A DNA stretch of 64,000 nt from Saccharofermentans sp. (GTDB taxonomy: Bacteria; Bacillota; Clostridia; Saccharofermentanales; Saccharofermentanaceae), in the NCBI GenBank assembly GCA_024684815.1, contig JAIKWL010000023.1, forward strand, positions 41,331 to 105,330. Reading direction: 5' to 3'. Shown here piece by piece: positions 2,734 through 29,141 of the stretch; the stretch's first letter is position 1, and each line of letters begins with the position of its first letter. Position numbers and translations under genes: made by a program. Under the pieces are notes generated by a model. That model was not told where the DNA came from. It did not search any database and saw nothing but the letters and a program-made list of their open reading frames with translations.

Positions 2734-3372
2734 ATGAATTGTGAATCATGCGGAACACCAATCAATGAAGGTCAGACTTCCTGTTACAAGTGCGGAGCGC
2801 CCGTCCTTCCTGAACTAGTCCAGACAGAAGAAAAGGATAAAGTCCTTATTGATCTTACGGCAGCAGAACAGACGATCCCGCCGTTTGTTCATGCCCCCGG
2901 TTCTGAACCGGAAATTCAAGCAGATACCACGCAGACTCAAACTCCTGCTAATCAACCCGACGCTCCGCAGAAGGTTGCGTCTGCTACGGCAGAAATACCT
3001 GTAATATCAACAGTTCAACATAACACATATAAGAAGTCTGCAGCACAAAAACCTGTCAAAAGAGTTAACGTCTGTGCATTTATAGGCCTTTTCCTTGGTG
3101 TAGCAATTATGCTTATAGAGATTTTAACTTTACTTAAATTATTGGACATCAGTTATTTGCATATTGGCATGCTAATTGCTTGGATTGCAAGTTTTGTGTT
3201 CTCATTAATAGGATTAGTTATAAAAGGGAATAAGCCAATAGCTATTATTAGTATTATTATATGTGTTTTACATATAGTTCTTTTTTATTTTATAGTTAGG
3301 TTTATTCTCATGCCTGAGTTTTTTGAAAGAATAAAAGACATGCTTCCTCCGCCCATGCCGGGGGTTATTTAA
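2734..3372 (+). CDS. Zinc-ribbon membrane protein, tandem paralogue 5
   Basis: 212 aa and the last of the tandem set. The ribbon (CESCG/CYKCG, residues 3-21) and the following block to residue 55 are nearly identical to paralogue 4, while a longer Gln/Thr/Pro linker (about 55-110) precedes three hydrophobic segments. The membrane part is the most divergent of the five. A short A/T-rich convergent gap and the trmL terminator follow. Function unknown; zinc-ribbon plus membrane layouts of this sort are common but uncharacterised in Clostridia. Confidence 0.82.
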   Translation: MNCESCGTPINEGQTSCYKCGAPVLPELVQTEEKDKVLIDLTAAEQTIPPFVHAPGSEPEIQADTTQTQTPANQPDAPQKVASATAEIPVISTVQHNTYKKSAAQKPVKRVNVCAFIGLFLGVAIMLIEILTLLKLLDISYLHIGMLIAWIASFVFSLIGLVIKGNKPIAIISIIICVLHIVLFYFIVRFILMPEFFERIKDMLPPPMPGVI

Positions 3373-3434
3373 ACTGACCATAGAGAATCAGACATAAATA
3401 AAATTTGTAAGTTTTTATCTTACTATGAATAACT

Positions 3435-3463
3435 AAAAAAATGCCCGGATCATTTCCGGGTAT
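3435..3463 (-). terminator. Intrinsic terminator of trmL
   Basis: Read on the minus strand, ATACCCGG and CCGGGCAT form an 8-bp stem (one G-U) with a 7-nt loop, followed by a run of seven T. The hairpin begins at the trmL stop codon. Confidence 0.85.
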
Positions 3464-4035
3464 TACTTTTTCTTTTTCCTTAATGTCTCATCGTAGGAAT
3501 AATACTGTTCTATAAAGTCTTCACCTTTTTGCTCTTCGGTAAAGGACAGACCGGGATAGCCCAGCTGTCTTAAGACTTCATAGATCGCTATGGCGCAGGC
3601 ATTTGAAAGGTTAAGACATCTGCAGTCGGCATTCATGGGGATGCGGAAACACCTGTCGAGATTAGCTCTTAAGATCTCACCCGGGATGCCTGTACTTTCC
3701 TTGCCGAATATCAGATAGATATTGGAATTCTTTGAAGCTTCGCGGAAATCGATATCTGACGGAGGCACTTTGCCGTACCTGGTCATGAAATAATATTCGC
3801 CTTCGTTCTTTTCCGCAAAGTCATTCCACGAGTCATAGAGAGTATAATCGGCCCATGTTATGTGATTTGTTGAGGCTCTTCTGAACTCGGGATTATCTAT
3901 ATCAAAACCGACAGGACCTATTATATGAAGAGTCGTACCTGCAGCCACACATGTACGCATTATATTACCGGTATTTTGAGGGATCTCCGGTTCGAAAAGA
4001 ACTACATTGACCAGATTGTTACCAGTATTTCCCAT
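3463..4035 (-). CDS. trmL: tRNA (cytidine(34)-2'-O)-methyltransferase
   Basis: 190 aa SPOUT-class methyltransferase. TrmL-family enzymes methylate the ribose of the wobble base in tRNA-Leu using S-adenosylmethionine. Visible family signatures are EPEIPQNTGNIMRTC near the N-terminus (about 15-30), FGKESTGIP (about 119-127) and the knot-forming RIPMNADCRCLNLSNACAI (about 139-157). Length is a little above the usual 155-165 aa because of short N- and C-terminal extensions; the C-terminus is Lys-rich. GGAG lies a few bases before the ATG. A terminator follows immediately, so this gene closes its transcription unit. Confidence 0.92.
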   Translation of the reverse strand: MGNTGNNLVNVVLFEPEIPQNTGNIMRTCVAAGTTLHIIGPVGFDIDNPEFRRASTNHITWADYTLYDSWNDFAEKNEGEYYFMTRYGKVPPSDIDFREASKNSNIYLIFGKESTGIPGEILRANLDRCFRIPMNADCRCLNLSNACAIAIYEVLRQLGYPGLSFTEEQKGEDFIEQYYSYDETLRKKKK

Positions 4036-4092
4036 TAAATGCTCCGTAAAAACATAGATGCTTATCTATATAATTGTTTTGCCGTAATGTTT

Positions 4093-5820
4093 TTATGCCT
4101 TTTTCGCAGCAACTTTGCTCTTGCCTTTTCCCTTACCCGTCTCTTCAGGTTCGGTATTATCTGCAACCTTAAATGCGATCTGGTTGGATTCGGCTGCAGC
4201 CTCGGCTATATTGAGCATATGATCTCCCAGACGCTCGAAGTCTGTAAGCATTTCCGAATAGATAACGCATGCATCACCTGAGCATACACCGGACTTAAGT
4301 CTCTCGAGCTGATGTTCTCTGTAGTCTTCGGTCATGTCATCTATCTTCTGCTCCATCTGAGCCATCTTGATATGGACAGAACCCGGTTTGCTGCTGAACA
4401 GGATATTATAAGCATCGCTGGTCGTCTTTACCATCTGGGCGACTTCCGCTCTGGCCTTTTCTGAAAGCTTCAATCCCTTGCTCTCAAGAAGATTTGCATA
4501 ACCGGAGATATTTGTCGCATGATCGCCCATACGCTCGATATTACCCGTTATCTTAAAAAGCGCACTCATGGTAACGGCATCTTTCTCAGACATTTCGAAG
4601 ACCATGGCGTGTGAGATGTAATAGGAGATCTCCTTATTAAGATAGTCAACGTACTCTTCCGTATCGTTGATCTCCTGCTGTTTCTTCTCATTGTTATCGA
4701 GAACCGTTTCTATACTCATCTGGACATTTCCGCCTGCCATTACGAGCATCCTGCTTATTTCACTGCAAAGAGCCCTAATAAGGACTTCCATGCCGAGTGA
4801 ATTCTGTGTGTTGAGCATTTTAGGACTGAGATATTTGAGGTACTTTACACCCTCTGATTCACCGCCCTTTGAAGGAACAATGAGCTTGACCAGTTTGACG
4901 ATAAGACCGCCGAACGGAAGAAGGATTATCGTTGAGGCAAGATTGAACACAAGATGCATATTCGCAAACTGTCTTGCGACATCGTTCGGTGACAGAGCTC
5001 TTACCCAGTCAGCTACGGGAATCAGATAGTAAGCAACCGTGAATATGGCCGTCCCGATAACATTGAACATCATGTGGAGCATGCCGGCTCTTGTGGCATT
5101 GCGCGAACCACCTATTGAGGCGAATACTGCCGTAACACAGGTTCCGATATTAAGTCCGAAGATTATGAACATGGCCTGCTCAAGACTTATGAGCTGGGCA
5201 CCCGATGCAGACATCGCCATAGCCTGCAAAACACCGACACCGGCAGCAGAACTCTGGATAATGATTACGAAGATGATTCCCACGACAATACCGATAAAAG
5301 GATTGTTGATCGACGAGAAAATGTCCTTTACTATATCAAGTTCGCTTAGAGGTGCCATGGACTCTTTCATCAATGACATGGCAACGAAAATAAATCCCAG
5401 TCCGGCAATGGCTTCGCCAATGCTCCTGAGCTTCTTATTCTTTGTGAGAAGGCAGAAGAAAGTACCTAAGAGAGCAATGATGGGGGCAGCAGCTCCGACA
5501 TCAAAAGCTATAAGCTGTGCAGTGATATTCGTACCGATATTGGCACCCATGATTATCCATAATGCCTGATAAAGGTTCATGAGTCCCGCATTAACAAATC
5601 CGACTGCCATAACCGAGGTAGCTGTTGAGGATTGGATCAGTGCCGTGATAAATGCACCTACCAATACACCTATTACTCTGTTTCCCGTGAGCTTGGCAAG
5701 GACATTCTTAAGCTTGTCCCCTGCTATTGTCTGTAAACTTCCGCTGGTGATCTTGACACTATACAGGAACAACGCCATACCGGAGCAAAGCCCCAATAAC
5801 GACGGCCAAACATCTACCAT
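4093..5820 (-). CDS. Na+/phosphate cotransporter with PhoU-like domain
   Basis: 575 aa from the ATG at 5820, which has GGAGG eight bases upstream; an upstream in-frame codon would add nine residues but lacks a site. The N-terminal half carries two Na/Pi-cotransporter (NptA/YjbB-type) repeats with the QSSTATS and QSSAAGVG signatures (near 60 and 190) and about eight hydrophobic helices to residue 310. The C-terminal half (about 345-545) is a soluble helical PhoU-like domain with MGDHA and LGDHM motifs. Expected role is sodium-coupled phosphate uptake or export at the membrane. The tail is Lys/Gly-rich. It stands alone between trmL and the exosortase operon. Confidence 0.93.
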   Translation of the reverse strand: MVDVWPSLLGLCSGMALFLYSVKITSGSLQTIAGDKLKNVLAKLTGNRVIGVLVGAFITALIQSSTATSVMAVGFVNAGLMNLYQALWIIMGANIGTNITAQLIAFDVGAAAPIIALLGTFFCLLTKNKKLRSIGEAIAGLGFIFVAMSLMKESMAPLSELDIVKDIFSSINNPFIGIVVGIIFVIIIQSSAAGVGVLQAMAMSASGAQLISLEQAMFIIFGLNIGTCVTAVFASIGGSRNATRAGMLHMMFNVIGTAIFTVAYYLIPVADWVRALSPNDVARQFANMHLVFNLASTIILLPFGGLIVKLVKLIVPSKGGESEGVKYLKYLSPKMLNTQNSLGMEVLIRALCSEISRMLVMAGGNVQMSIETVLDNNEKKQQEINDTEEYVDYLNKEISYYISHAMVFEMSEKDAVTMSALFKITGNIERMGDHATNISGYANLLESKGLKLSEKARAEVAQMVKTTSDAYNILFSSKPGSVHIKMAQMEQKIDDMTEDYREHQLERLKSGVCSGDACVIYSEMLTDFERLGDHMLNIAEAAAESNQIAFKVADNTEPEETGKGKGKSKVAAKKA

Positions 5821-5972
5821 AAAACCTGCCTCCAATCGGCTAACCAAATAAACCCGTTAAAATACACACATAATAATATTGATGAAGGAACGAGTTTTCA
5901 AGGCTTTGGATTAAATATCAAAGTCTTTTACGGTTATCAGGAGCCTGTTTTGTGCAACATATAGATGGCGGT

Positions 5973-8540
5973 CTATTTATTGTCCGTTTCCTTTTTGCGT
6001 CTGATAAAGAACACCATTATGGCAATAACCGCAACACCTGACAATGACAGGAGTGAACCCTGCAGGAGATATGGGTATTTGTATGTAATTGTCGTCTCAC
6101 CTTTGTCGACATAGACCAGTCTGTTAAAGGCTTTGTAATTGCCGTTAAAGATATCATGATCGGCAATGGAAGTGTTGACACCGTCTTTCGGGGAAGAAAC
6201 AGTGATCGAGTTGCCGGAATGAGTAATATCTATCGGTACAACTTCTCTTACCGGAACTTCATACTCACTTGTCTCAACTATGCCTGCGAGAAGAGCACCT
6301 ATGGTCCTGTCCTTGGTAAGCGCATAGTAATATGTGAGATTGAAAGCAATGAAGTTGATATTATCGTTAGTTCCTTTGCCGTAGAACGGGAGAGTCTCAC
6401 CAAGGACTTCCGAATAGCCCTGAACTTTGGTCAGGCCGTTGATATAGACTGTTCTCCACTGCTTTAAATCATTGGGGAAGAGCGCAATTTCAAGATCTCC
6501 CATGAACGTTGTCTTAAGTGCAGGAAAACCGTTATCGAATTCAACCGACTGGCATTCTACGTCGAGGAACCTGTATGTTCTGCTCTCAGCATTTTCGGGG
6601 ATTCCGTCAGCAAGGACATAAACCTTGGTACCTGCTTCGGCAGCTCTGGTGATCAGGTCTTCAGCAGCGTGGATATCGTGATATAAGAAACCGTCAAGAT
6701 AGATAATGTTATAACTTGAAAGTTCTTCGAATGTGAAGTCGTCGATATATTCACTGGGTGCCTCACAGATCGTCGGGAACATCATGGAGATGTAATAAGC
6801 ACCATTACCTATAGCCAGACCGTAATAATCACTGACTGTGCCGTATGTGCCGGTAACATCCTGATGATGGTAGACGACATAAATGCCTTCCTCGTATTCT
6901 TTTACATATCCTCTTAATGTGGCTGCGGCATCAGCTTCTATCTCGTTATAAGGTTCCTTTGCTGCGGCATCCTTTTTGATAAGGACTGTATCACAGCCGA
7001 ATTCAAGGAGTCTGTCAAACAGGAAGTAATAGTAACCGTTGTCGAAAGCTTCGTTTATCTGGGCAATCTGGAGGGATGTTGAAGCAGCCTCCCAGCCCTG
7101 ACCGAACAACTGATCTACAGAGCTCTCATAATCCGTAAGATAGAATACACCGTTAAACAACGCTTTATTGCTGTCAATAAGAGCTATCCTGTTATCAGTG
7201 ATCGACTTGGCTTCGTCAATGAGTGTGTTTTCGGTCATGTTCTCGAAGTAACCTCTTACTGTTTTAGGATCTGTCGCATCAGGTCTTAATGTAAGAACAG
7301 ACAGGAAACAATCAACAGTCAGCAAGGTTGAAACAGCAACAACAAGAGGTTTTTTGAGGCTGTCCCATTCGAGCATCGAGAAAAGGATCATTGCAGATGC
7401 GATCTGAAGGAAACGCATCATCCACATCAATGAACCGCCGGGGAGCATCTTTATTATAGGAGCGGCCGTGTTCGAAGTCAGCAAGACAATAATTATTGCG
7501 GTAATAAAACCGGCGCGGGCACGTTTTTTGCTTGCAATGGCTCCGAACACGGCAAAGATAAAGGAAATTATTCCGAAATAAGAAGCTGAATAGCCTTCCT
7601 TAAATTTCTTTACAGGATTCAAAGTGATAAATATGCTCTGGAAAAAGCTCTCGGCAGCCTGACTTGCATTTGAAGTGTTTGATGCAAGGCCGCCCTTAAG
7701 TGCGGGCAGGAGGAATACGCCGCACAAAAGGAAGCCGGCCAATACTGCAACAATAATTTCCAGATCTCTTTTACGCGATCTCTGAAGTCTTCCCGAACCG
7801 GTAAAACAGCAGAGTCTGTATATAAGCAGATAAATAAGACATGCCAGAGCAACCATGCCGGTGTAACCCACATGGCATGCGCACATGGCAGAGAATGTAA
7901 GAGCAGTTCCTATGAAGTTCTTTACACCGCCCTTTTTCAGATACTCGTTGATAAACAGGAACGACAGAGGGAAGATCGCCATGATAAGGCTTCTCGGCAG
8001 GTTGCCCTCTGCAAACAAAACGTACAGGCTCTGAGGCATAAAGAACCACAGAACACCGATGACAGCTCCCGTAACAGGTCTGTTCTTGATAAAACCGGTT
8101 ATATTCCAGGTAACCGCGCCGATAAGATATATAAGGCCGCAATAGACCGCAAATCCTTCAAAGACGTAGTTTTCCGTAAATATCCCCGGAAGGCTTCTTG
8201 CAATAAACTGGCAGAAAGCCATAGCGTATGCCGCAACAGGCGGCCAGTAACGCATAAGCTCAACGCCGTTATACCATACAGTGTTATAAAGGGGCCACAG
8301 ATCGCCCGAGGAAACGGAATTAAGGATCCAGTCTCCTCTATATACGTGATACATCGAGTCAGAACCCTTGAACAGGATACTGCTGCGGCTTACAAACCAG
8401 ATAACAGCTGCACCTATTATCAGGTTTATCAGTAAGCTGATGATTAATGTTAATGTCTTTCGGCTCTTAGTCTCCAAAACCCTTCTCCAGTCTTGATACT
8501 GCTGCTTCAACCTCGTCTGAGGTATTTCTGTCTCCGGCAC
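5973..8540 (-). CDS. 6-pyruvoyl-tetrahydropterin-synthase-related membrane protein (XrtG system)
   Basis: 855 aa. About ten hydrophobic segments lie in the first 420 residues, followed by a roughly 380-residue extracytoplasmic region and a final transmembrane helix with a positive tail (RRKKETDNK). The plan matches the integral membrane proteins called PTPS-related, which occur beside exosortase G genes. It resembles oligosaccharyl- or lipid-linked-sugar transferases in topology, but no catalytic motif can be assigned by eye. It is the last gene of the operon and, from a GTG start, overlaps the preceding gene by 74 bases; a TTG near 8477 just after GGAGAAGG is an alternative start. Product family likely, function unknown. 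Confidence 0.8.
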   Translation of the reverse strand: MPETEIPQTRLKQQYQDWRRVLETKSRKTLTLIISLLINLIIGAAVIWFVSRSSILFKGSDSMYHVYRGDWILNSVSSGDLWPLYNTVWYNGVELMRYWPPVAAYAMAFCQFIARSLPGIFTENYVFEGFAVYCGLIYLIGAVTWNITGFIKNRPVTGAVIGVLWFFMPQSLYVLFAEGNLPRSLIMAIFPLSFLFINEYLKKGGVKNFIGTALTFSAMCACHVGYTGMVALACLIYLLIYRLCCFTGSGRLQRSRKRDLEIIVAVLAGFLLCGVFLLPALKGGLASNTSNASQAAESFFQSIFITLNPVKKFKEGYSASYFGIISFIFAVFGAIASKKRARAGFITAIIIVLLTSNTAAPIIKMLPGGSLMWMMRFLQIASAMILFSMLEWDSLKKPLVVAVSTLLTVDCFLSVLTLRPDATDPKTVRGYFENMTENTLIDEAKSITDNRIALIDSNKALFNGVFYLTDYESSVDQLFGQGWEAASTSLQIAQINEAFDNGYYYFLFDRLLEFGCDTVLIKKDAAAKEPYNEIEADAAATLRGYVKEYEEGIYVVYHHQDVTGTYGTVSDYYGLAIGNGAYYISMMFPTICEAPSEYIDDFTFEELSSYNIIYLDGFLYHDIHAAEDLITRAAEAGTKVYVLADGIPENAESRTYRFLDVECQSVEFDNGFPALKTTFMGDLEIALFPNDLKQWRTVYINGLTKVQGYSEVLGETLPFYGKGTNDNINFIAFNLTYYYALTKDRTIGALLAGIVETSEYEVPVREVVPIDITHSGNSITVSSPKDGVNTSIADHDIFNGNYKAFNRLVYVDKGETTITYKYPYLLQGSLLSLSGVAVIAIMVFFIRRKKETDNK

Positions 8541-8907
8541 CTTCAGCTTCAGGGAATCTTACTCCGTAAGTTCTTACAGGTGTCTCACTGCCTTCAAATC
8601 TTCTTAAGTGGTAGTTCATAGGCTTAACCGCTTCAGCGATCTGTGCCGCAAAATACTCGGTTATATTTTCCAGTGAAGGGATGATCGCATTGAACGGTTC
8701 ATGATCGTTCATGATCTGATTCTGATAAGGCTCAAAGATCTTCATTATCTGCTTCTCAGGCTCAGTGAACTTAATGATATCCGAACCGGTCGTATATACT
8801 GTCGCAACGAACTCCCATGTGTGGGGATGCACGTCGCCCTTCTTTCCGTCAAAGACCACGAAGTGGCTGGCATTAAGATATGCTTTTATCCTGTAATATC
8901 TGAGCAT
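8467..8907 (-). CDS. 6-pyruvoyl-tetrahydropterin synthase-related protein (XrtG-associated)
   Basis: 146 aa. The zinc-site pattern of PTPS enzymes is visible: H15 in ASHFVVF and the H27-x-H29 pair in DVHPHTWEF. The ENITEYFA block (about 78-85) matches the PTPS active-site helix. The Cys that real PTPS enzymes carry just before the HxH pair (GKCxxxHGH) is replaced by Lys22, so synthase activity is doubtful. This divergent subfamily is known from exosortase G neighbourhoods. The ATG touches the stop of the sensor gene upstream (1-base spacing), and the 3' end overlaps the large membrane protein. Role in the system unknown. Confidence 0.85.
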   Translation of the reverse strand: MLRYYRIKAYLNASHFVVFDGKKGDVHPHTWEFVATVYTTGSDIIKFTEPEKQIMKIFEPYQNQIMNDHEPFNAIIPSLENITEYFAAQIAEAVKPMNYHLRRFEGSETPVRTYGVRFPEAEGAGDRNTSDEVEAAVSRLEKGFGD

Positions 8908-9960
8908 TTATTTACCCTCCCCTGTTTTGCATAAAGCTTCGTAAACTGCAACTGCATCTGTTTTCTCATCAGCTGTATAGGCAACGGTGCCTTCAGGTAT
9001 AGTCTCCTTCGGGATCTTCTGTTCAAGTATCTTCATCGACTCCTCGGCATTCTTGCCTCCGAACAGGAGCATAAATCCGTCTTTGCAATATCTGAGCCAT
9101 ACCACCTGCTCACCTAACAGTTTGCTGTTAGCCGAGTAGAAGCTCATCATGTGTTCTGTATCGAGCTTCATCTTTATGAATGTACAGGGATAGACTTTTC
9201 TTTCATCGATCCTGTGAAGAAGTCTCATCACCTTGCCTTCACCGGTGATAATGGCTGTCTGGCTCCTGCCCATGACAACATTGTCAAGATAGTCGATATA
9301 GGTATTAAGTTCTGAATTGACACGTTTTACGTCTTCTACTTTTTTCCTGGCATCGATAAGTTTGGTTGCATAGTAGATAACGATTATCGCCAGCAAAGCT
9401 ATAAGGATAATGAATACTATAAGAAGATATAACTTGCTGCTCAGATAAGCGTTATTGGTGAGCATAATGTTGTAGTCTGTAAGGAGACAGAGTCTGTATT
9501 CTGTTCCGGAGTATTCAAAAATGATACCCGATGCAACATATTTGTCGCCTTCGAGTGTGATGATCGAGTGGGTTACATTACCTTTGACAAGTGTAGCCAA
9601 AAAGCTCTGGGCACTCTGTGTGTTATAGAAAGTATCCGTTGAGAATGTCTTATAAACGTTTGTCTCACTGATACTCTTAACAAAAAGGAAGTATTGTGAG
9701 TTATCGAGTGTCCAGTAACGCTGGGAAGTGGAGTCGAGCATCTCGATCGTATCTTCTACGAACTTATCGCCTGCGATATCACCGTAGAGCTCTATCTGCC
9801 TTGCAACGATCTCAACATAACCATCCTGCTCCTGTGCATAAAGCTCGGCCACACCCTGCTCGTAATTGTAGATCTGCCACATGGCAAATGCCGAGAAGAG
9901 CAGTGCAAGGATCACAACGCCTGCCGTTATTAGAATTAGTGATTTGCGAGACTTATTCAT
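8908..9960 (-). CDS. Membrane-anchored sensor-like protein with degenerate GGDEF-like domain
   Basis: 350 aa. A first transmembrane helix (about 8-30) is followed by an extracytoplasmic region of about 140 residues, a second helix (about 172-195), a short linker helix and a cytoplasmic domain. The cytoplasmic part has the secondary-structure rhythm of a nucleotide-cyclase/GGDEF fold but no GGDEF motif, so I treat it as a degenerate relative at best. The start chosen (9960) has TGAGGAT eight bases upstream and overlaps the glycosyltransferase stop by 8 bases; a weaker start five codons upstream exists. It is embedded in the exosortase G operon, which suggests it senses or scaffolds that system. 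Confidence 0.7.
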   Translation of the reverse strand: MNKSRKSLILITAGVVILALLFSAFAMWQIYNYEQGVAELYAQEQDGYVEIVARQIELYGDIAGDKFVEDTIEMLDSTSQRYWTLDNSQYFLFVKSISETNVYKTFSTDTFYNTQSAQSFLATLVKGNVTHSIITLEGDKYVASGIIFEYSGTEYRLCLLTDYNIMLTNNAYLSSKLYLLIVFIILIALLAIIVIYYATKLIDARKKVEDVKRVNSELNTYIDYLDNVVMGRSQTAIITGEGKVMRLLHRIDERKVYPCTFIKMKLDTEHMMSFYSANSKLLGEQVVWLRYCKDGFMLLFGGKNAEESMKILEQKIPKETIPEGTVAYTADEKTDAVAVYEALCKTGEGK

Positions 9961-11335
9961 AGTATTTATCCTCATAATTTACTTTCGCTCTGAACTTCTT
10001 TATTGCACCGGAGATCTTTCCGAGATTCTCTCTGGCTGCGACACGGAACATATCCGCTTCTCTTGTGAGCGTATCTGTCTTCCAGCTGCTCTGTGTGTTG
10101 ATGCTGTTGATAATCCCCGCAAGTCTGATAAAGAAAACAACAAAGTTATAGAAAGGCAGAAGCGCAACGACACCCCATTGTTTCATATAGTAATCCCGGG
10201 TCTCGGGGAAAGGCTTGAGAAGATACTGGGCAATGTAGAAATACAGATAGCCGCAGATGATATAAAAGAGGAATATTACTCCCATCGAAAGCAGGACCGT
10301 GCCTGATGAGAATCCGTAACACATCAGAACTATCAGCGCCAGATACCAGATCATTCTCGGGAATGCGAAAGTATGGTCGAACAGCAAAGTGTGTATGTTC
10401 GTATCTTTTGCAAATCTCCATGGCCTGAGCTTGCTCTGGGGGTATAATCTTGCGACTTCAAGAGAGCCTCTCTGCCAGCGCTGACGCTGGGTATAGAGCT
10501 TGTTTACGCCTTCGATAGGATCCGTGAAATAAATGGCATCAACACAGATTCCGACTTTCTGTTTCTGAATATATCTCATCTGGAAAGTGATCTCTGTATC
10601 CTCCGAGATCGTCTCGGTATTATACAGATGTGACTTACGGATGGAACTCATTCTGAATGCCGAGAAAGCACCGGATAACGTATACATCGAGTTCGTCTCG
10701 GAAGCAAAGTTTCTTCCTGCGAGGAATGCCTGGCAGTATTCGCAAAATTCGATCTTTCTGAACAGTCTTGATTTGAACGACTTGTATTTCTCGATCTTGT
10801 CGGGACGTGTCAGAATAGAACCTGTAAGGCATGTGTATTCCGGATAGTTCTCAAGACGGAGGATCATGTTCCTTAAAGCACTCTTTTCGAGATAACCGTC
10901 TGAGTCAATGTTTATCAGATAACTTCCCTTACTGTTATAGATAGCAAGGTTTAAAGCTCTGGATTTTCCCTGTCCCGAGTTGAGCCAGTTAAGACGCAGA
11001 TTCGGGAACTTCGCCTGAGCTCTGGCAAAAGCATCAAAGCTGTGATCCGAGCTCTGGTTATTAACAAGATAGACTTCGATATGCTCATTCGGATAATCGC
11101 AGTCATGTACTGATTCAAGACATCTCTCAAGGCTGTCCTCTGAATTGTAGACAGGAATGATAAGAACGATATCCGGCCAGATCTTCGGCTCTTCCATTCG
11201 CTTCTTCTTGTGTTCCTGACGAAGCAGCACAAAGAAAGATCCGATTGAAGGAATGACTTCAACGATCAGGGGGATTATTACCCATGCAAGCCAATAGAAA
11301 AAAGGATTTATTACATGTGTTAAGAATGTATTCAT
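9953..11335 (-). CDS. Processive family 2 glycosyltransferase, exosortase G-associated
   Basis: 460 aa. A transmembrane segment (about 8-35) precedes a GT2 domain with NIDSDGY (about 140), SEDTEI (about 240) and the QRQRWQRG motif (about 283-290) of processive, BcsA-like synthases. Two further hydrophobic segments follow (about 325-380). The enzyme should use a nucleotide sugar on the cytoplasmic face and extrude or hand over a glycan. It matches the glycosyltransferase subfamily known to accompany XrtG. Its ATG overlaps the xrtG stop as ATGA, so translation is coupled. The glycan and acceptor are unknown. Confidence 0.9.
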   Translation of the reverse strand: MNTFLTHVINPFFYWLAWVIIPLIVEVIPSIGSFFVLLRQEHKKKRMEEPKIWPDIVLIIPVYNSEDSLERCLESVHDCDYPNEHIEVYLVNNQSSDHSFDAFARAQAKFPNLRLNWLNSGQGKSRALNLAIYNSKGSYLINIDSDGYLEKSALRNMILRLENYPEYTCLTGSILTRPDKIEKYKSFKSRLFRKIEFCEYCQAFLAGRNFASETNSMYTLSGAFSAFRMSSIRKSHLYNTETISEDTEITFQMRYIQKQKVGICVDAIYFTDPIEGVNKLYTQRQRWQRGSLEVARLYPQSKLRPWRFAKDTNIHTLLFDHTFAFPRMIWYLALIVLMCYGFSSGTVLLSMGVIFLFYIICGYLYFYIAQYLLKPFPETRDYYMKQWGVVALLPFYNFVVFFIRLAGIINSINTQSSWKTDTLTREADMFRVAARENLGKISGAIKKFRAKVNYEDKYYE

Positions 11336-11961
11336 TCTTTTAAAGCCTCACTTTCTATGGCATCTGTATCTTTCTTTGTATAAGCGAAGTCTCCGGTCTT
11401 CATCTTAAGAACGTGCGGCTTCGTAAATACGAAGAAGTAAAGGATAACCTGAAGTACGTAGAATATTATTCTTCCGACAACGGTATGAGCTATGTAGTAG
11501 TAATCCGTACCGAGGAAGTGGATCATCGTACAGATAACGCCGACCCTTAACGCATTTGTAAGGAGTGTATAAAGTGTTCCGATGATTCCGACGTAGATCC
11601 TTTCGGGCACGTTATATATCTGATAAAAGACCAGAAGTGAAAGGAATGCTGATATCTCGATAATACCGGAACACTCCATATCGATATTCACCGTAATGGC
11701 CCCGTTAACAGATTCAATAAAGATAACGCCGTATCTGAAATAAGCCTGGTAATATCCCGTTACCTTGCCGAATATTCCCGCGATGGCCGCAACTATCCTT
11801 GCAAGAGGCAAAACAAGCCATGGTCTTACAACTACAAGGAGTATAAGGAATATCCCGCAGGCCCCTAAAAGATACCTCCAAAACCTGAGCCCAGCTTTCC
11901 TGAGCACTCTTAGAAGCCAGACCCACAATGCGATTGCGGCGGCATAGATTATGTATGTCAT
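11332..11961 (-). CDS. xrtG: Exosortase family protein XrtG
   Basis: 209 aa integral membrane protein with about six hydrophobic helices. The exosortase/archaeosortase catalytic residues can be placed: Cys97 in MECSGI, Arg139 in NALRVGV and His159 in YIAHTVVG. These enzymes are transpeptidase-like and recognise a C-terminal tripartite sorting signal on secreted proteins, cutting it and probably transferring the protein to a membrane or wall acceptor. The short length and neighbourhood fit the Firmicutes-specific XrtG group. Its start overlaps the stop of the upstream substrate gene as TAATG, and its stop overlaps the next start as ATGA. All three catalytic residues are intact, so it should be active. 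Confidence 0.92.
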   Translation of the reverse strand: MTYIIYAAAIALWVWLLRVLRKAGLRFWRYLLGACGIFLILLVVVRPWLVLPLARIVAAIAGIFGKVTGYYQAYFRYGVIFIESVNGAITVNIDMECSGIIEISAFLSLLVFYQIYNVPERIYVGIIGTLYTLLTNALRVGVICTMIHFLGTDYYYIAHTVVGRIIFYVLQVILYFFVFTKPHVLKMKTGDFAYTKKDTDAIESEALKE

Positions 11962-13238
11962 TAGTCCTTCTTTCTGCGATTAAGGGTGTAATAGGAACCC
12001 GCCGCCATGGTTGTTAGTGCAACTACAAAAAGAGGACCGGTCGACACGCCCGATGTAGGGAACAACTTCCAGCCTACTCTGTGGAAAAGGACCTGGATCT
12101 TACCTGCGAAAGACGAGTCAATACCTCCGCACCTCTGAAGCGCAGCGACATCAAACCAGAACTCCGTCTCATCGTGAAGATTCCGTGTTGTGATATACAT
12201 TTCTCCGAGATAATGATCAAGTGAGGAAATGTTATTTATATTTGTTGAAGTCCTTGAATCCGAGAAATAGAACAATGCGTAATGATGTGTTCCTTCCGGA
12301 AGACTTCTTGTGTTGGGGGACGGCCAGCTGAGACTGCCGTCATCACCGAGATCTACTGCGATCAGCTTCGTATGTGTATAGTCGAAGAGGATCGTAACCT
12401 CGAGGAATTCAGAACCGCGCTGATAACCGGTGTCAGAACCGTCCCAATAGTTTGTAAAGCAGTGAACATATGCAATGCCGTCTTCGGTATAGATAGATCC
12501 CTTGGCATCTGCGTAATTGTTTGTCGTTCCTGATGTATCGTATTCTACTGTGCTTACGGGATAATACTCCCAGTCACGGTAATCACCGTCGATAACTATG
12601 CCGGAACCGTCATTATGAGGACCCGGAGTAGGTGTCGGATCATCCTCACCGTGCGATATTCCGTTTGCATCAGCAACATCGGTGATGATATTCTCGCCGA
12701 GATAATATCCGAAATTGATCGTTGATGAATACTGGGGCAATACGGAGGAAGGGATAGCTATCTCAGTGAGGCTCGGAGCTCCCCATACTGAGTAATCGCT
12801 GTTGAAAGCTACCTGCAGTCCGCCGTTTGTGTTTGAAAGATAAGTATTGGTAACGGGATTGGTAACTTCAATGGTATTGCCTGCTCCGCCGTTATTGTGA
12901 ACCGAGATCATAAGCACTTCGCCAAGATCCGTCACGATATTAAAGTTACCGTTGTGTCTGGGGCCTGACCAGGAAGCGGAATTCTGCTGGACTTCATCAA
13001 GATAGATGTAGATCCAGTCACCGTCCCATACCATGGCACACTGATTCATCGGGTTCTGTCCGTCGTACAAAGTGGTGAAGTCATATTTAACGACACTGTC
13101 CCAGTCACTGAAATTACCGTCAATCGTTATTCCCGAATAGGAATCAGCGCTTGCGGGTAATGCAAAGTAAGGGACAACGAAAAGCGTTGCTGCAATGCCG
13201 CTCAAGACTCTGAAAAATCTGTTAAAACTCTTATTCAT
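11961..13238 (-). CDS. Secreted Firmicu-CTERM surface protein, likely XrtG substrate
   Basis: 425 aa. A signal peptide (residues 1-31, ending ALPASA) leads into two related beta-rich modules, one starting GITIDGNFSDW (about 35) and one GIVIDGDYRDW (about 213), of the type often called DOMON-like. A Pro/Thr hinge separates them. The C-terminus has a short STGP motif, a hydrophobic helix and a basic NRRKKD tail, which is the layout of the Firmicu-CTERM sorting signal recognised by XrtG. The ATG has a strong AAGGAGGG site. Being the first gene and overlapping xrtG by one base, it is almost certainly the dedicated substrate. Ligand unknown; sugar or haem binding are possibilities for this fold. 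Confidence 0.88.
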   Translation of the reverse strand: MNKSFNRFFRVLSGIAATLFVVPYFALPASADSYSGITIDGNFSDWDSVVKYDFTTLYDGQNPMNQCAMVWDGDWIYIYLDEVQQNSASWSGPRHNGNFNIVTDLGEVLMISVHNNGGAGNTIEVTNPVTNTYLSNTNGGLQVAFNSDYSVWGAPSLTEIAIPSSVLPQYSSTINFGYYLGENIITDVADANGISHGEDDPTPTPGPHNDGSGIVIDGDYRDWEYYPVSTVEYDTSGTTNNYADAKGSIYTEDGIAYVHCFTNYWDGSDTGYQRGSEFLEVTILFDYTHTKLIAVDLGDDGSLSWPSPNTRSLPEGTHHYALFYFSDSRTSTNINNISSLDHYLGEMYITTRNLHDETEFWFDVAALQRCGGIDSSFAGKIQVLFHRVGWKLFPTSGVSTGPLFVVALTTMAAGSYYTLNRRKKD

Positions 13239-13270
13239 GGTCCCTCCTTATTTTTGCAAACCATAGTAGG

Positions 13271-13298
13271 ATATCACAAACGATTTGAATTGTGTCAA
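13271..13298 (-). promoter_or_regulatory. Candidate promoter of the exosortase G operon
   Basis: On the minus strand TTGACA (13293-13298) is followed after 16 bases by TGATAT (13271-13276), 33 bases before the start codon of the Firmicu-CTERM gene. The rest of the gap 13239-13541 shows no gene; it presumably also holds the promoter of the divergent lipase gene, which I could not place. Confidence 0.45.
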
Positions 13299-13541
13299 CA
13301 ATATGGCGATTTTTTGAAATTTGTTCATTTTTGCATCATTGCCATTTGGTTTTTGTGCAACCTGTATCAATAAAGGCCTGAAAATGCCGCTCTCACCCTT
13401 CCCAGGGCCTCTAAAATGCGGCAATTCTTGAGTAATACCGCTCTTGCACAAGGTTCAGTATTGAATATTGAATAATAGTAATCTATACTCCGTTTATAGA
13501 TCAGAGGCGTAATTTCGCTGCTGTTTATAAGGGAATTATTT

Positions 13542-14366
13542 ATGAATAACGACTGTAATCTAAAATATCCGCTGCTCATGGTTCACGGAATGGGTTTTCG
13601 CGACCGGAAGCACCTGTGTTACTGGGGCAGAGTACCCGGAACTTTGGAATCACAGGGAGCAAGAGTTTTTTTCGGAAATCAGGATTCCGTAGGTTCAATT
13701 GAAAGCAATGCAAAGATAATAGCGAAAAGCCTCGACGAGGCATTGGAGATAACAGGTGCCGGGAAGGTCAATATCCTTGCACATTCAAAAGGCGGACTTG
13801 AAGCCAGATATCTGGTCAATCACGGTTACCGCGACAAGATAGCATCCATAACAACTATAGATACTCCTCATCACGGATCGCACACCGTGGATTTCCTGAT
13901 GAAAAGTCCGAGATGGCTTGTAAAGACCGCGGCAAAAGGCACTGATATCTGGATGAAGATCTTAGGAGACAAAAATCCCTCGAGCTACAGCTGTTTTGAC
14001 AGTCTTACAACAAAGACCGCCGAACAGTTTAATATCGATAATCCGGCTCCCGAAGATGTATATTGTCAAAGCTACGCATTCATGTGTGACGGAGCATTCT
14101 CTGATCCGGTGTTCTGCATCACCTATCCTGTTGTCAGTAAATTCGACGGAGATAATGACGGTATGGTCTCTGTGGCTTCCGCCAGTTGGGAAAACTTTAA
14201 AGGGGTTCACACATCAGCTACATACAGAGGGATCTCCCATGCGGATGTCGTGGATCTGAGGCGCAGAAGATTTACTTCCAGAACTCCCTCATCCGTAAAT
14301 GAAGTCAGCGATATAACCTCTTTCTATGTGTCTGTGATCAGGGAACTTAAGCTTATGGGATACTAA
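13542..14366 (+). CDS. Lipase/esterase, alpha/beta hydrolase
   Basis: 274 aa. The oxyanion-hole motif MVHGMGF (about 13-19) and nucleophile elbow LAHSKGG with Ser82 place it among triacylglycerol lipases of the type found in clostridia and staphylococci. The elbow begins with Ala rather than the usual Gly, as in several Bacillus lipases. Likely acid and base are the Asp in FDGDNDGMV (about 205) and the His in GISHADVV (about 232). No signal peptide is visible, so it is predicted to be cytoplasmic. It stands alone, divergent from the exosortase operon. The substrate is not predictable. Confidence 0.85.
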   Translation: MNNDCNLKYPLLMVHGMGFRDRKHLCYWGRVPGTLESQGARVFFGNQDSVGSIESNAKIIAKSLDEALEITGAGKVNILAHSKGGLEARYLVNHGYRDKIASITTIDTPHHGSHTVDFLMKSPRWLVKTAAKGTDIWMKILGDKNPSSYSCFDSLTTKTAEQFNIDNPAPEDVYCQSYAFMCDGAFSDPVFCITYPVVSKFDGDNDGMVSVASASWENFKGVHTSATYRGISHADVVDLRRRRFTSRTPSSVNEVSDITSFYVSVIRELKLMGY

Positions 14367-14431
14367 CTAAGCATAAAACGTTCGAAATATCCGTACTTAT
14401 TTAAATATCAATATAATTTTCTGCTTTCTGG

Positions 14432-14440
14432 TGTTATAAT
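14432..14440 (+). promoter_or_regulatory. Extended -10 promoter element
   Basis: TGTTATAAT is a perfect extended -10 (TGN plus TATAAT), 39 bases before the start of the glycosyltransferase gene. No good -35 is seen, which is usual for extended -10 promoters. Confidence 0.55.
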
Positions 14441-14479
14441 GACATGCGATTTGCAGAAGAAAGGTTTTTATAGTCAGCT

Positions 14480-15514
14480 ATGCAAAAGCTTCTTTCGGTG
14501 GCAATCCCTTGTTACAATTCACAGGATTATGTCCGCCGGGCTATTGACAGTTTATTACCTGGTAAGGAAAAGGTAGAGGTTCTCGTCGTTGATGACGGCT
14601 CTACCGATGATACATATAAGATCGCAGAAGGATACGCAGAGAAGTATCCCGGTATTGTTCGTGTGATCCACAAGGAAAACGGCGGTCATGGCGATGCTGT
14701 TATGACCGGACTTAATAATGCAACCGGACTTTATTACAGAGTACTTGATTCAGATGACTGGCTTGATGAAAGCGCTCTTATGAAACTTCTCGATGTCATC
14801 GAAGAGATGACTGATCCCGAAAAAGCTGCAGATCTTATCATTACCAATTATGTATATGAGAAGGTCAGAGAAGGCCGCAGTCATACGATCGACTACCGTA
14901 AGACTCTCCCCGTAGGAAGACTTTTTGATTGGAGCGAAGTCGGCAAATTTGCAACCGGTTCTTATATCCTTATGCATTCAGCCACATACCGCACCGAACT
15001 TCTCAAGAGTTCCGGGATAGATCTTCCCAAGCACACTTTCTATGTGGATCACCTTTATGTCTGCTATCCGATGATCAATGTCTCTAAGATGTATTATCTG
15101 GATGTCGATCTTTACAGATACTTTATCGGCCGTGATGACCAGTCCGTAAACGAGAAAGTCATGCTCAGCAGAATGGATCAGCAGCTCCGCGTCAACAGAC
15201 TGATGCTCTACAATCTTAATGTTGATCCTATTGCTAATAAAGAGAAAAAAGAATATCTCTATTACTATACTGAGATCGTTACTCTCGCCACCCTTTCCTT
15301 CCTGCTCAGGACCGGAACAAAAGAAAACGAGAAGGAACTCGAGTCATTCCTCGATGAGATCCACGATAAGAGACCTGCTTACTACAAATGGATCATGGGC
15401 AGACCGTTCTACCGTCATCCGATAAGACCCCTGCGCAAACTTCCCCGCTGGATGAGCTATCCTCTCTACCGTGCTTCATATCTCGTCGCACGCAAACACT
15501 TCGGATTTAACTGA
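14480..15514 (+). CDS. Family 2 glycosyltransferase
   Basis: 344 aa. The GT-A fold is clear: VAIPCYNSQDY at the N-terminus, DDGSTDDT (about 38-45) for nucleotide binding and DSDDW (about 91-95) as the metal-binding DxD. No transmembrane helix is seen, so the enzyme should act at the inner face of the membrane in cell-surface polysaccharide, glycolipid or teichoic-acid-type synthesis. The C-terminal third is basic and may help membrane association. A flippase-like gene lies in convergent orientation directly behind it, and the two stop codons abut with no gap. Donor and acceptor unknown. Confidence 0.88.
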   Translation: MQKLLSVAIPCYNSQDYVRRAIDSLLPGKEKVEVLVVDDGSTDDTYKIAEGYAEKYPGIVRVIHKENGGHGDAVMTGLNNATGLYYRVLDSDDWLDESALMKLLDVIEEMTDPEKAADLIITNYVYEKVREGRSHTIDYRKTLPVGRLFDWSEVGKFATGSYILMHSATYRTELLKSSGIDLPKHTFYVDHLYVCYPMINVSKMYYLDVDLYRYFIGRDDQSVNEKVMLSRMDQQLRVNRLMLYNLNVDPIANKEKKEYLYYYTEIVTLATLSFLLRTGTKENEKELESFLDEIHDKRPAYYKWIMGRPFYRHPIRPLRKLPRWMSYPLYRASYLVARKHFGFN

Positions 15515-16549
15515 TCAATTATTTCCCTTATTGTCTTTGTTCCCTGTAATAATCTGAAGAAGGAACAGACCAAGTCCGCTTATGACAAGCGGCAGCACGA
15601 AGCTGCAAAAACGTGATAAGAGCATTGCACTTCCCATAACTTCCACAGGGATAAGGTCAGCATAGAATAAAGCATATCCGTATTCTGTAACACCGGCGGC
15701 ACCGGGAAGAGGCAATGAGGAAACAGATATGAATAATGAAGACTGTGTCCGTAATACGGTAAACCAGTCAAGATCTACGCATCCGATGGCACGGGCACAG
15801 AAAAACGTTACTGAGTGGAACAGTACTATCTGAACCAGTGATGTCAAAAGCATCTTAAGGAACACGGTCTTATTCATCTTCAGAAGCGCTGCAGCTTTGC
15901 GGTATGCGGCAAAAGACCGCAAAAATCCGAATCTGTCTCCGGGCTTTATCCCGCGAAGTTTCATTAATTTAAGACCTATACCGGCAAACATTCCGGCGAT
16001 CTTTCTTGTAAAGAGCACACATATCAGGCATATGATAATGGCAACATTAAGAGCAAATCCTATCGGAAATACATAGGCAAATTTACCCTGGAGCTTAAAG
16101 ACTTCTCCGCGCGAAAAGATCACTCCCAAGATACCCAGTAAGACCGCAATACATTGAAAGCTCAAAAGAGCGCACAGCAAGGTAAATGCACTGTGCGAGA
16201 CTTTCAGTTTGTCTTTTGACATGAAATAAAGCTGTCCCGGCTGTCCTCCGGTAGAAGACGGAGTTATCGAGCTGAAGAAAAAACCGGCAAAAGAATACTT
16301 CATCATCTGTGCAAAAGTGATCTTATAACCGGCAAGCCTTAAACACCTGCTGATATTGATCCCGTCAGCTATGGAATAAAGAGCCATGGCGAAAACCGCC
16401 GCCAATACCCACCTGATATCGGCGTGCTTTAATGTTCCTATGATATCCTGCCCTTGAAGTTCACGGTGAATGACATACAATGTCGCGCCGCCAAGAAGCA
16501 CAAGAAATATCGCACCAAGCCAAAGAGATTTCTTTTTTAAAAGATTCAT
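15515..16549 (-). CDS. Lysylphosphatidylglycerol synthetase TM-region / AglD-like flippase-domain protein
   Basis: 344 aa with about eight hydrophobic helices over its whole length. Motifs such as SSITPSSTGGQPGQLY (about 99-114) and SSLPLPGAAGVTEYGYALF (near 280) match the UPF0104/MprF flippase-like membrane domain. The C-terminal synthetase domain of MprF is absent, so it should move or organise a lipid rather than make lysyl-PG. No ribosome binding site is visible, while a TATAAT sits 7 bases before the ATG, suggesting a leaderless mRNA. It faces the neighbouring glycosyltransferase gene tail to tail. Substrate unknown. Confidence 0.85.
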   Translation of the reverse strand: MNLLKKKSLWLGAIFLVLLGGATLYVIHRELQGQDIIGTLKHADIRWVLAAVFAMALYSIADGINISRCLRLAGYKITFAQMMKYSFAGFFFSSITPSSTGGQPGQLYFMSKDKLKVSHSAFTLLCALLSFQCIAVLLGILGVIFSRGEVFKLQGKFAYVFPIGFALNVAIIICLICVLFTRKIAGMFAGIGLKLMKLRGIKPGDRFGFLRSFAAYRKAAALLKMNKTVFLKMLLTSLVQIVLFHSVTFFCARAIGCVDLDWFTVLRTQSSLFISVSSLPLPGAAGVTEYGYALFYADLIPVEVMGSAMLLSRFCSFVLPLVISGLGLFLLQIITGNKDNKGNN

Positions 16550-16556
16550 AGGGGGA

Positions 16557-16565
16557 ATTATAGCA
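16557..16565 (-). promoter_or_regulatory. Extended -10 element, possible leaderless start
   Basis: On the minus strand TGCTATAAT ends 7 bases before the ATG of the flippase-like gene and no Shine-Dalgarno sequence lies between. Transcription would start at or next to the A of the start codon. Confidence 0.5.
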
Positions 16566-16638
16566 TATATGCTTTGACAGATTGAGGCATATTAAAGATA
16601 TATATGCCTGCTGCTAAAAAGCATTTGCCGGTCCGGTC

Positions 16639-17487
16639 TTAACAGTTTCCCGTATAAACGTATTCCAGTTTTTCCCGTGCGATATCGGCAAGTTCATATA
16701 TCCTGCCGACATCCGTGGCTTCTCTGTCACACATCTTATATCTCGGGAAAAACCTTGAGATATGAAGCGGTATCTTACTGCCGATGACATTTCCTCTCCC
16801 GTCAGTCAGACCGGCTATCCATGAGGCAAGATCTGTCATTTCCTCATAACTGTCATTCATATCAGTTACGATCAGCATCGTAAGTTCAACATGGCAGACC
16901 TGAACAGCTCTTGTGATAAAAGTTTTTACAGTCTTAAGATCTCCGCCTAAAACCTCTTTATATGTTTTATCCGACATGCTCTTTATATCAATGTTCATTG
17001 CATCGATATATGGTAATATTTCTTCTTCGATCTCGGGTTCTGCTGACCCGTTCGTAACGAGCACATTTTTCATTCCCGCTTCTTTTACAAGCTTTGCAGT
17101 ATCCCTGACGAATTCGTATCCTGCAAGAGGTTCATTATATGTATAAGCAATGCCTATATTGCCCCTGTCTTTGTATTTCAGTGCGAGCTTTACAAGATCT
17201 TCGGGTGTTATCTCATCATCAAACTCACTGCCTGATGATCTGGATATCTCATGATTCTGGCAGAACGGACAGAAAAGATTACACCCGTAACTTCCGACAG
17301 ATAAGATCTTTGAACCCGGATAAAAACGGGATAAAGGTTTTTTCTCAATAGGATCTAAAGCAAGTGAAGTGATCCTCCCGTAATTATCAGAGACGACTTT
17401 ACCCTCTCTTGCGGTTCTTGCACCGCAAGGTCCTGTCATTCCTTCCTTCAGATCGCAATGTCTGAAGCAAACCCTGCAGACTGCCAT
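16639..17487 (-). CDS. amrS: AmmeMemoRadiSam system radical SAM enzyme
   Basis: 282 aa radical SAM protein. The 4Fe-4S motif CNLFCPFCQ (about 69-77) is of CxxxCxxC type and resembles pyruvate-formate-lyase activators. An N-terminal Cys-rich segment (CRVCFRHC, residues 4-11, then CG near 21) matches AmrS. The system couples this enzyme to MEMO-like and AMMECR1-like proteins; its substrate is not established. It starts one base after the stop of the fused B/A gene, so the two are surely co-translated. The family is widespread in anaerobes. Confidence 0.9.
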   Translation of the reverse strand: MAVCRVCFRHCDLKEGMTGPCGARTAREGKVVSDNYGRITSLALDPIEKKPLSRFYPGSKILSVGSYGCNLFCPFCQNHEISRSSGSEFDDEITPEDLVKLALKYKDRGNIGIAYTYNEPLAGYEFVRDTAKLVKEAGMKNVLVTNGSAEPEIEEEILPYIDAMNIDIKSMSDKTYKEVLGGDLKTVKTFITRAVQVCHVELTMLIVTDMNDSYEEMTDLASWIAGLTDGRGNVIGSKIPLHISRFFPRYKMCDREATDVGRIYELADIAREKLEYVYTGNC

Positions 17488-29127: not shown

Positions 29128-29141
29128 GTGCTCTTCCTCCG

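Follow-up and report, generated by a model that had tools for sequence, protein, structure and literature searches.

The DNA analysed here, hereafter called the window, is a stretch of 64,000 nucleotides from a Saccharofermentans sp. draft genome (GenBank assembly GCA_024684815.1, contig JAIKWL010000023.1, positions 41,331 to 105,330), and it carries a complete exosortase G (XrtG) operon of six genes. We read this operon as an exosortase system dedicated to a single substrate and organised around a polysaccharide machine in the membrane; XrtG would play a structural role in it besides cutting, and our confidence in this reading is evenly balanced. A role beyond cutting is proposed because XrtG proteins that have lost their catalytic cysteine, and that are welded to a CTERM-type domain, are kept under strong selection elsewhere.

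In the proposed scheme, the processive GT2 would make and export a polymer, and the GT-C enzyme (PF10131) would add sugars at the outer face of the membrane. The CTERM protein would be exported and held by its C-terminal transmembrane segment; XrtG, through Cys97, would cut it just ahead of this segment, in the region of the motif SGVSTGP, and the C-terminus thus freed would be passed to an acceptor that is membrane-embedded or membrane-associated. The DGxxxDW domains of the protein would remain beside the synthase as an outer subunit, perhaps a glycan-binding one, with XrtG holding the CTERM domain at the machine via its Arg/His pocket. A separate CTERM chain would require XrtG catalysis for its installation, whereas a chain welded to XrtG would not. 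The sensor, with its probably GGDEF-derived inner domain, and the PTPS-like putative pseudoenzyme would be regulatory parts that adjust glycan output, linking it to an outside signal and perhaps also to a guanine- or pterin-type ligand such as cyclic di-GMP (c-di-GMP).

Composition of the operon

All six genes lie on the minus strand, from 13238 down to 5973, and overlap or touch (gaps of -1, -4, -23, 0 and -74 nucleotides). Four NCBIfam models and one Pfam model score far over their curated cut-offs (given here in brackets, in bits): the Firmicu-CTERM substrate protein reached 92 bits with TIGR04145 (50), XrtG 180 bits with TIGR03110 (102.75), GT2 577 bits with TIGR03111 (363.95), the PTPS-like protein 114 bits with TIGR03112 (69.35) and the PF10131 (PTPS_related) membrane protein 392 bits with its Pfam model (26.4). 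The six-gene minus-strand operon described in an earlier note on this DNA was thus confirmed by its coordinates, gaps and family scores. The draft genome of origin comprises 2.78 Mb in 85 contigs and is 76% complete.

Conservation of the gene set

TIGR03110 matches were found in 12 of the 299 genomes sampled in the phylum (8 above the cut-off) and in 9 of the 291 sampled in the class, the window's own genome being counted in both, and in 3 of 8 sampled genomes of its genus. Scanning genome contigs with an XrtG alignment yielded 251 confirmed relatives, and the analysis retained the best 80; the counts given below for the class type concern these nearer relatives. Among these best 80 of 251, the nearest XrtG relatives come from genomes of gut and rumen origin that bear the labels Saccharofermentans, Ruminococcaceae, Oscillospiraceae or Clostridiales, the best at 85% (L060). 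With six others added and duplicates removed (L024, L027 and L028, which duplicate L067, L040 and L041), 86 loci were obtained, and 65 of them extend at least 2.5 kb upstream and at least 6.5 kb downstream.

The profiles used to search these 65 loci for the partner genes were built starting from the window and a small number of relatives, several of which belong to the 65 themselves; same-strand GT2, sensor, PTPS and GT-C (PF10131) genes were found in all 65 loci, the CTERM gene in 64. In the remaining locus, L059, none was present, but a Firmicu-CTERM gene lies on a different contig. The six genes are thus very strongly associated, a point on which the earlier note had staked its reading. Comparison of gene order across XrtG genomes, also proposed there, revealed a nearly constant set, with the window's exact order in 46 of 65 loci; the GT-C gene stands between CTERM and XrtG in 17 and before CTERM in one. 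A small DPMS-like GT2 was present in three loci. By contrast, the description of the sensor as an extra gene had to be abandoned, since a homologue lies between GT2 and PTPS in 65/65 loci. The weakest sensor match (39 bits) is that of L021, where a sensor half is fused to PTPS, and the second weakest reaches 86 bits.

The same association appeared at the genome level. TIGR04145 matched in each of the nine XrtG-bearing genomes of the class (in 8 of them above the cut-off), in none of seven genus or order relatives without XrtG and in none of ten distant members of the phylum; PF10131 was above its cut-off in 9/9 class genomes with XrtG versus 0/7 relatives without it. In the 44 of the 80 genomes for which TIGR04145 was counted, these being reached through their loci, each genome had one protein with a Firmicu-CTERM match reaching the tail part of the profile (44/44). 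G649 and G673 each had, in addition, a large protein that matched partially.

XrtG and its substrate

XrtG (11332..11961, minus strand, 209 amino acids) had been described as having intact Cys97, Arg139 and His159, and this was borne out by an alignment of nine XrtG sequences, in which the three residues are invariant. Cys, Arg and His were likewise present in 85 of 86 class-type rows, the 86th ending at a contig end before the His; L013/L038 (G108, 23.6 bits, without partner genes) were excluded from these residue counts. We take the three residues to be the exosortase active-site triad. The exosortase-family model TIGR04178 gave one match in the source genome.

The substrate protein (11961..13238, minus strand, 425 amino acids) has a signal-type hydrophobic N-terminus, two copies of a DGxxxDW domain, the motif SGVSTGP, a hydrophobic stretch and an RRKK tail. 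The motif pattern, written after the tails had been inspected, was found in 81/82 proteins, the hydrophobic stretch in 81/82 and the basic end in 82/82. A search for other Firmicu-CTERM tails, which the earlier note had called for, found the domain in a single gene of the source genome (76% complete), twice within the same protein. The two domain copies resemble each other well within the class (hhalign E 1.2e-6). A CBM9-type carbohydrate-binding fold, at first considered for the DGxxxDW domain, was dropped for lack of support after Pfam and PDB-sequence searches returned no usable match. These sequence features make it plausible that XrtG cuts the CTERM protein, since the Cys/Arg/His residues are intact and the substrate carries the motif, the transmembrane stretch and the basic tail.

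Substrate-fused XrtG without the catalytic cysteine

In other classes of the phylum, parts of the XrtG set are rearranged. The order of G097 (10 genomes) and the class of G116 (3 genomes) were the material available to widen this comparison. The CTERM-type domain is found on the GT-C C-terminus beside a Cys-containing XrtG in L029, L034, L035 and L036, with PTPS at the GT-C N-terminus in three of these four. It is encoded by a separate gene beside a Cys-containing XrtG in L184, L185, L187, L188, L189 and L191, and also in L037, where the Cys-containing XrtG runs into GT2. In the latter locus (L037:10085-11533), XrtG and GT2 share one frame of 482 amino acids with overlapping domain matches, either through a real fusion or through a sequencing frameshift. 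Lastly, the domain lies on the N-terminus of XrtG itself in L030, L031, L032, L033, L186, L190, L192, L193, L194 and L195, that is, in ten genes from nine genomes (L190 and L192 being two copies in one genome).

All ten fused XrtG have lost the catalytic Cys (nine Asn, one Ser) and all have kept the Arg; the His is kept in 9/9, the tenth being cut off. Among the unfused distant XrtG, the Cys is kept in 11/11. The tails of unfused CTERM-type proteins mostly read DIQWSP[IV]P or similar, followed by a hydrophobic stretch and a basic end. In the fused proteins a string that is mostly DIQWAPFP or similar runs directly into the first XrtG transmembrane segment, which places the junction at the sorting motif. 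Homology between the distant domain and that of the Firmicu-CTERM proteins is supported by hhalign (probability 95.3, E 2.3e-8 across 61 columns; 12 controls at 0.11 or worse), and its likeness to the first domain copy of the class proteins is weak (hhalign P 0.0012). When TIGR04145 was run against five distant domain-bearing proteins, only those of L029, L030 and L031 matched, at E 0.009-0.013; L034 and L181, in which our own profile places a CTERM-type domain, gave no TIGR04145 match at E up to 1.

In a tree of 41 XrtG, the fused genes form one clade (support 99/95), which sits beside five separate-gene forms (joint node 95/89), and two of its members, L030 and L194, share 54% identity. These sequence data fit a single evolutionary event of fusion and Cys loss that would have been kept for a long time. 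The ratio of nonsynonymous to synonymous substitution (dN/dS) of the exosortase part, calculated with a Nei-Gojobori script, was 0.08-0.135 in 11 fused pairs; the pairs had a synonymous difference under 0.70, branches are shared among them and some are near saturation. With TIGR04178, 25 of the 26 genomes searched had a single match and G604 had two, both of the fused Cys-less type, although a second exosortase could escape in three of the nine fused genomes that are less than 95% complete (67, 88 and 92%). The Cys-less clade retains GT2 wherever the contig reaches. Taken together, the fusions seen among the relatives are sensor-PTPS (L021), PTPS-GT-C (L025, L029, L031 and others), GT-C-CTERM (L029, L034-L036), CTERM-XrtG (ten genes) and GT2-Sulfatase-type (L067).

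These observations bear on the model put forward in the earlier note. There, XrtG would act as a classical transpeptidase: the cut CTERM protein would be transferred to a glycan or glycolipid product of GT2, and a protein-glycan conjugate would result. Such a model would account for the constant company of XrtG, a single CTERM protein and GT2, and it has a parallel in the lipid-anchored archaeosortase substrates of Haloferax, as reported in the accessible parts of the sources (PMC7157517, PMC11980579). However, no acceptor was identified, and Cys-based transfer is impossible in the Cys-less fused clade, which nevertheless retains XrtG and, as far as contigs extend, GT2. Without this Cys, the domain cannot be handed over to a glycan by Cys catalysis, so that, in that clade at least, the CTERM-type domain would stay membrane-tethered at XrtG. 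We regard the transpeptidase model as unlikely.

The Cys-less fusion could also be a mere membrane anchor of one lineage, uninformative about a window-type enzyme that would be an ordinary protease. Indeed, the fused proteins belong to a single clade far from the window type, and the sorting motifs differ (SP[IV]P-like versus GxSTGP-like). A mere anchor, however, would have no need of the active-site Arg and His, which are kept in 10/10 and 9/9 proteins under a dN/dS of about 0.1, and this explanation seems doubtful to us. The retention of both residues under such constraint in Cys-less, CTERM-fused proteins suggests instead that XrtG may also have a non-proteolytic role, as in the structural reading preferred here.

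Glycosyltransferases

The processive GT2 (9953..11335, minus strand, 460 amino acids) carries the motifs DxD (144-146), ED (245-246) and QxxRW (283-287), each residue of which is conserved in at least 97% of 98 sequences. PgaC/IcaA (TIGR03937) is its nearest named enzyme family, at 118 bits, far below the cut-off of 422. A GT2 with a C-terminal Sulfatase-family (LtaS-like) domain was observed in L067 (10581-13481, 966 amino acids, E 1.8e-19), and further loci were so labelled; this suggests that the polymer may be decorated with a phospho-group in lineages having this fusion.

The last gene of the operon (5973..8540, minus strand, 855 amino acids) had been called a PTPS-related membrane protein. 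The PF10131 match upholds this family name, but the picture has changed, since PF10131 belongs to the GT-C glycosyltransferase clan according to the available text of PMC7801869. A simple hydropathy scan predicted nine hydrophobic stretches. In loci where the GT-C gene has moved ahead of XrtG, a gene of approximately 620-750 amino acids occupies its old place (L091:13508-15670; similar-sized in L065, L072-L074 and L087). The L091 protein of 720 amino acids, the only member scanned, had no Pfam match.

Sensor and PTPS-like protein

The membrane sensor (8908..9975, minus strand, 355 amino acids) is composed, according to a hydropathy scan, of a transmembrane segment (13-31), an outer domain, a second transmembrane segment (182-200) and a C-terminal domain. 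Pfam and NCBIfam scans name no family for it. At the same position, L025 encodes a protein in which the sensor is followed by a GGDEF domain (E 7.4e-18, motif GGGEF) and then by an HD-GYP-type HD domain (4.9e-34). When 71 relatives were combined into a profile, with L021, L022, L023, L025 and three short or cut sensors omitted, this profile recovered L022 (2.4e-23), L023 (8.3e-23), L025 (1.1e-18, residues 6-311) and L021 (2.4e-11). Compared by hhalign with GGDEF domains, of which 18 usable ones were obtained from 30 GGDEF loci, the sensor C-terminal domain gave P 4.9e-4 and a probability of 31.7, in the expected register, with five unrelated control profiles at 0.097 to 0.82. A Pfam scan of 64 sensors listed 25 families, with a GGDEF-type family in one member. 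The GG[D/E]EF motif is absent from the window sensor; among 78 sensors, only L025 has a near-motif (GGGEF) inside a GGDEF domain, and the AGDEF of L040, at residue 65, lies outside the sensor C-terminal domain. From these profile comparisons, the C-terminal half of the sensor is probably a degenerate, GGDEF-derived domain devoid of cyclase activity.

In L067 and L075, two similar rabbit-gut genomes that are not independent (XrtG 88% identical), the only GGDEF gene found lies approximately 10 kb from xrtG; between the two genes, L067 encodes an HD-domain response regulator. The other genomes searched had one to 42 GGDEF matches, and two order relatives without XrtG had none.

The PTPS-like protein (8467..8907, minus strand, 146 amino acids) was examined by alignment, its residue register being taken from the PDB relative PH0634. 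It keeps the metal ligands His15, His27 and His29, as well as Glu108. These three His, together with Glu80 and Glu108, are found without variation in 91/91 PTPS-like sequences (77 from the class, 14 distant). The available text of PMC5041015 gives CxxxHGH, CxxxxxHGH and ExxHGH as COG0720 signatures; all three are absent from the window protein, which reads GxxHPH at the expected place and has Gln-Asn instead of the Asp-His pair. None of the 91 sequences has a Cys in the eight residues preceding HxH. In the class sequences, Gln takes the first position of the Asp-His pair and the residue after it is Asn in 55, Asp in 20, and otherwise Glu or Gly, so that 75 of 77 read Gln-Asn or Gln-Asp. An ordinary PTPS/QueD enzyme was thus rejected, the metal ligands being kept and the catalytic Cys and Asp-His pair missing, and we infer from these residues that the protein is a pseudoenzyme.

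Fusions join PTPS to half of a sensor in L021, and to GT-C both in L025 and in seven to ten distant loci (L029 and L031 among them), as far as contigs and matches reach, which suggests a regulatory role. The PTPS-like protein might alternatively catalyse the formation of a glycan building block, either pterin-like or a modified sugar, the sensor merely reporting wall stress. The invariance of the metal His and of the Glu108 position (91/91) would suit such an enzyme, but the missing signatures, the absence of a Cys close to HxH, the substituted Asp-His pair and the fusions that point to regulation make it improbable. A second, more diverged PTPS-like gene lies directly upstream of the CTERM gene in L021 (7926-8318), L022 (8520-8945) and L023 (8203-8586), and was labelled in 30 of the 65 full loci.

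Weighing of the proposed model

Several points weigh against a dedicated exosortase system in which XrtG would be both cutter and structural subunit. Fusion and Cys loss are consistent with one event, so that the 10/10 count does not amount to ten independent tests, and the fused clade is distant from the window, whose XrtG shares 27% identity with that of L031. A simple D..H..D/E acid pattern in the first outer loop was present in only 3 of 74 GT-C sequences. The carbohydrate-binding reading of the DGxxxDW domain found no database support in the Pfam and PDB-sequence searches. On the regulatory side, a direct GGDEF search of the sensor set was not significant (best E 0.064), the window sensor has no Pfam GGDEF match, and the idea that any part binds c-di-GMP is a guess. 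None of the genes listed around the distant loci is labelled as a sensor, and the regulatory module is therefore not universal.

A bolder form of the model, possible in our view though we lean against it, would make XrtG primarily a structural subunit that holds the substrate within a polysaccharide synthase complex under signal control. Its Cys chemistry would serve only to couple a separately made outer domain and would become dispensable once this domain is welded, while the Arg/His pocket stays. The regulatory arm would then consist of the GGDEF-derived sensor and a T-fold (PTPS-like) pseudoenzyme binding a guanine- or pterin-type messenger, a use of the T-fold for which we know of no precedent.

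Other features of the window

No known RNA family reached its gathering score in window positions 3000-17000, and promoter and terminator scans gave results no better than shuffles. Divergent from the operon, on the plus strand, an alpha/beta hydrolase and a separate GT2 are encoded at 13542-14366 and 14480-15514; a close homologue of this hydrolase is also found near the operon in L027 and L028. Farther away, a single frame of 551 amino acids (27568-29223) matches chorismate mutase, the shikimate dehydrogenase N-domain and shikimate kinase, and adjoins chorismate synthase.

Comparison with known systems

The window operon is a further member of an already curated family set, the XrtG/Firmicu-CTERM system, all four families of which (TIGR03110, TIGR03111, TIGR03112 and TIGR04145) are found above cut-off in this one operon. 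To this set, the window adds a conserved sensor family, unnamed by Pfam and NCBIfam, and the PF10131 GT-C gene. In the open-licence papers searched, as far as their accessible text goes, the action of exosortase G on its single substrate is not established, and no description was found of the conserved sensor, of the PTPS-like protein as a pseudoenzyme or of a Cys-less substrate-fused XrtG. An XrtG system (CTERM protein, exosortase and two glycosyltransferases) was reported, in the accessible part of the source, to be over-expressed in interferon-inducing, self-aggregating Lactiplantibacillus plantarum strains (PMC12854382).

Two testable claims emerge from the comparison. One is that an exosortase lacking its Cys and fused to the substrate domain exists in nature and is maintained by purifying selection; the other is that a processive synthase is accompanied by a fixed pair of regulatory genes. 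This pair, of a probably GGDEF-derived sensor and a PTPS-like putative pseudoenzyme, recurs beside the synthase in many Lachnospiraceae of gut and rumen and in their relatives. PgaC/D (with PgaD), BcsA/B (with BcsB) and Listeria Pss are c-di-GMP-regulated GT2 synthases that invite comparison. As in these, a processive GT2 would have a c-di-GMP-type protein alongside, here by way of the sensor with its probable GGDEF ancestry. The gts operon of L. acidophilus has a degenerate EAL receptor, and, unlike the window operon, this Lactobacillus operon as described in the available text names neither exosortase, CTERM, PTPS-like protein nor GT-C (PMC6123363).

Both claims bear on the control of surface polysaccharides in Gram-positive gut bacteria and on whether exosortases are sorting proteases only. 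PEP-CTERM systems have many substrates. XrtG resembles exosortase/PEP-CTERM (EpsH) and archaeosortase ArtA, as far as the accessible text describes them, in being a multi-spanning membrane cysteine enzyme with a tripartite substrate tail and a link to exopolysaccharide (PMC1569441, PMC11980579). Unlike these, however, the XrtG system has one dedicated substrate, and includes a branch in which this substrate domain is fused to a Cys-less enzyme.

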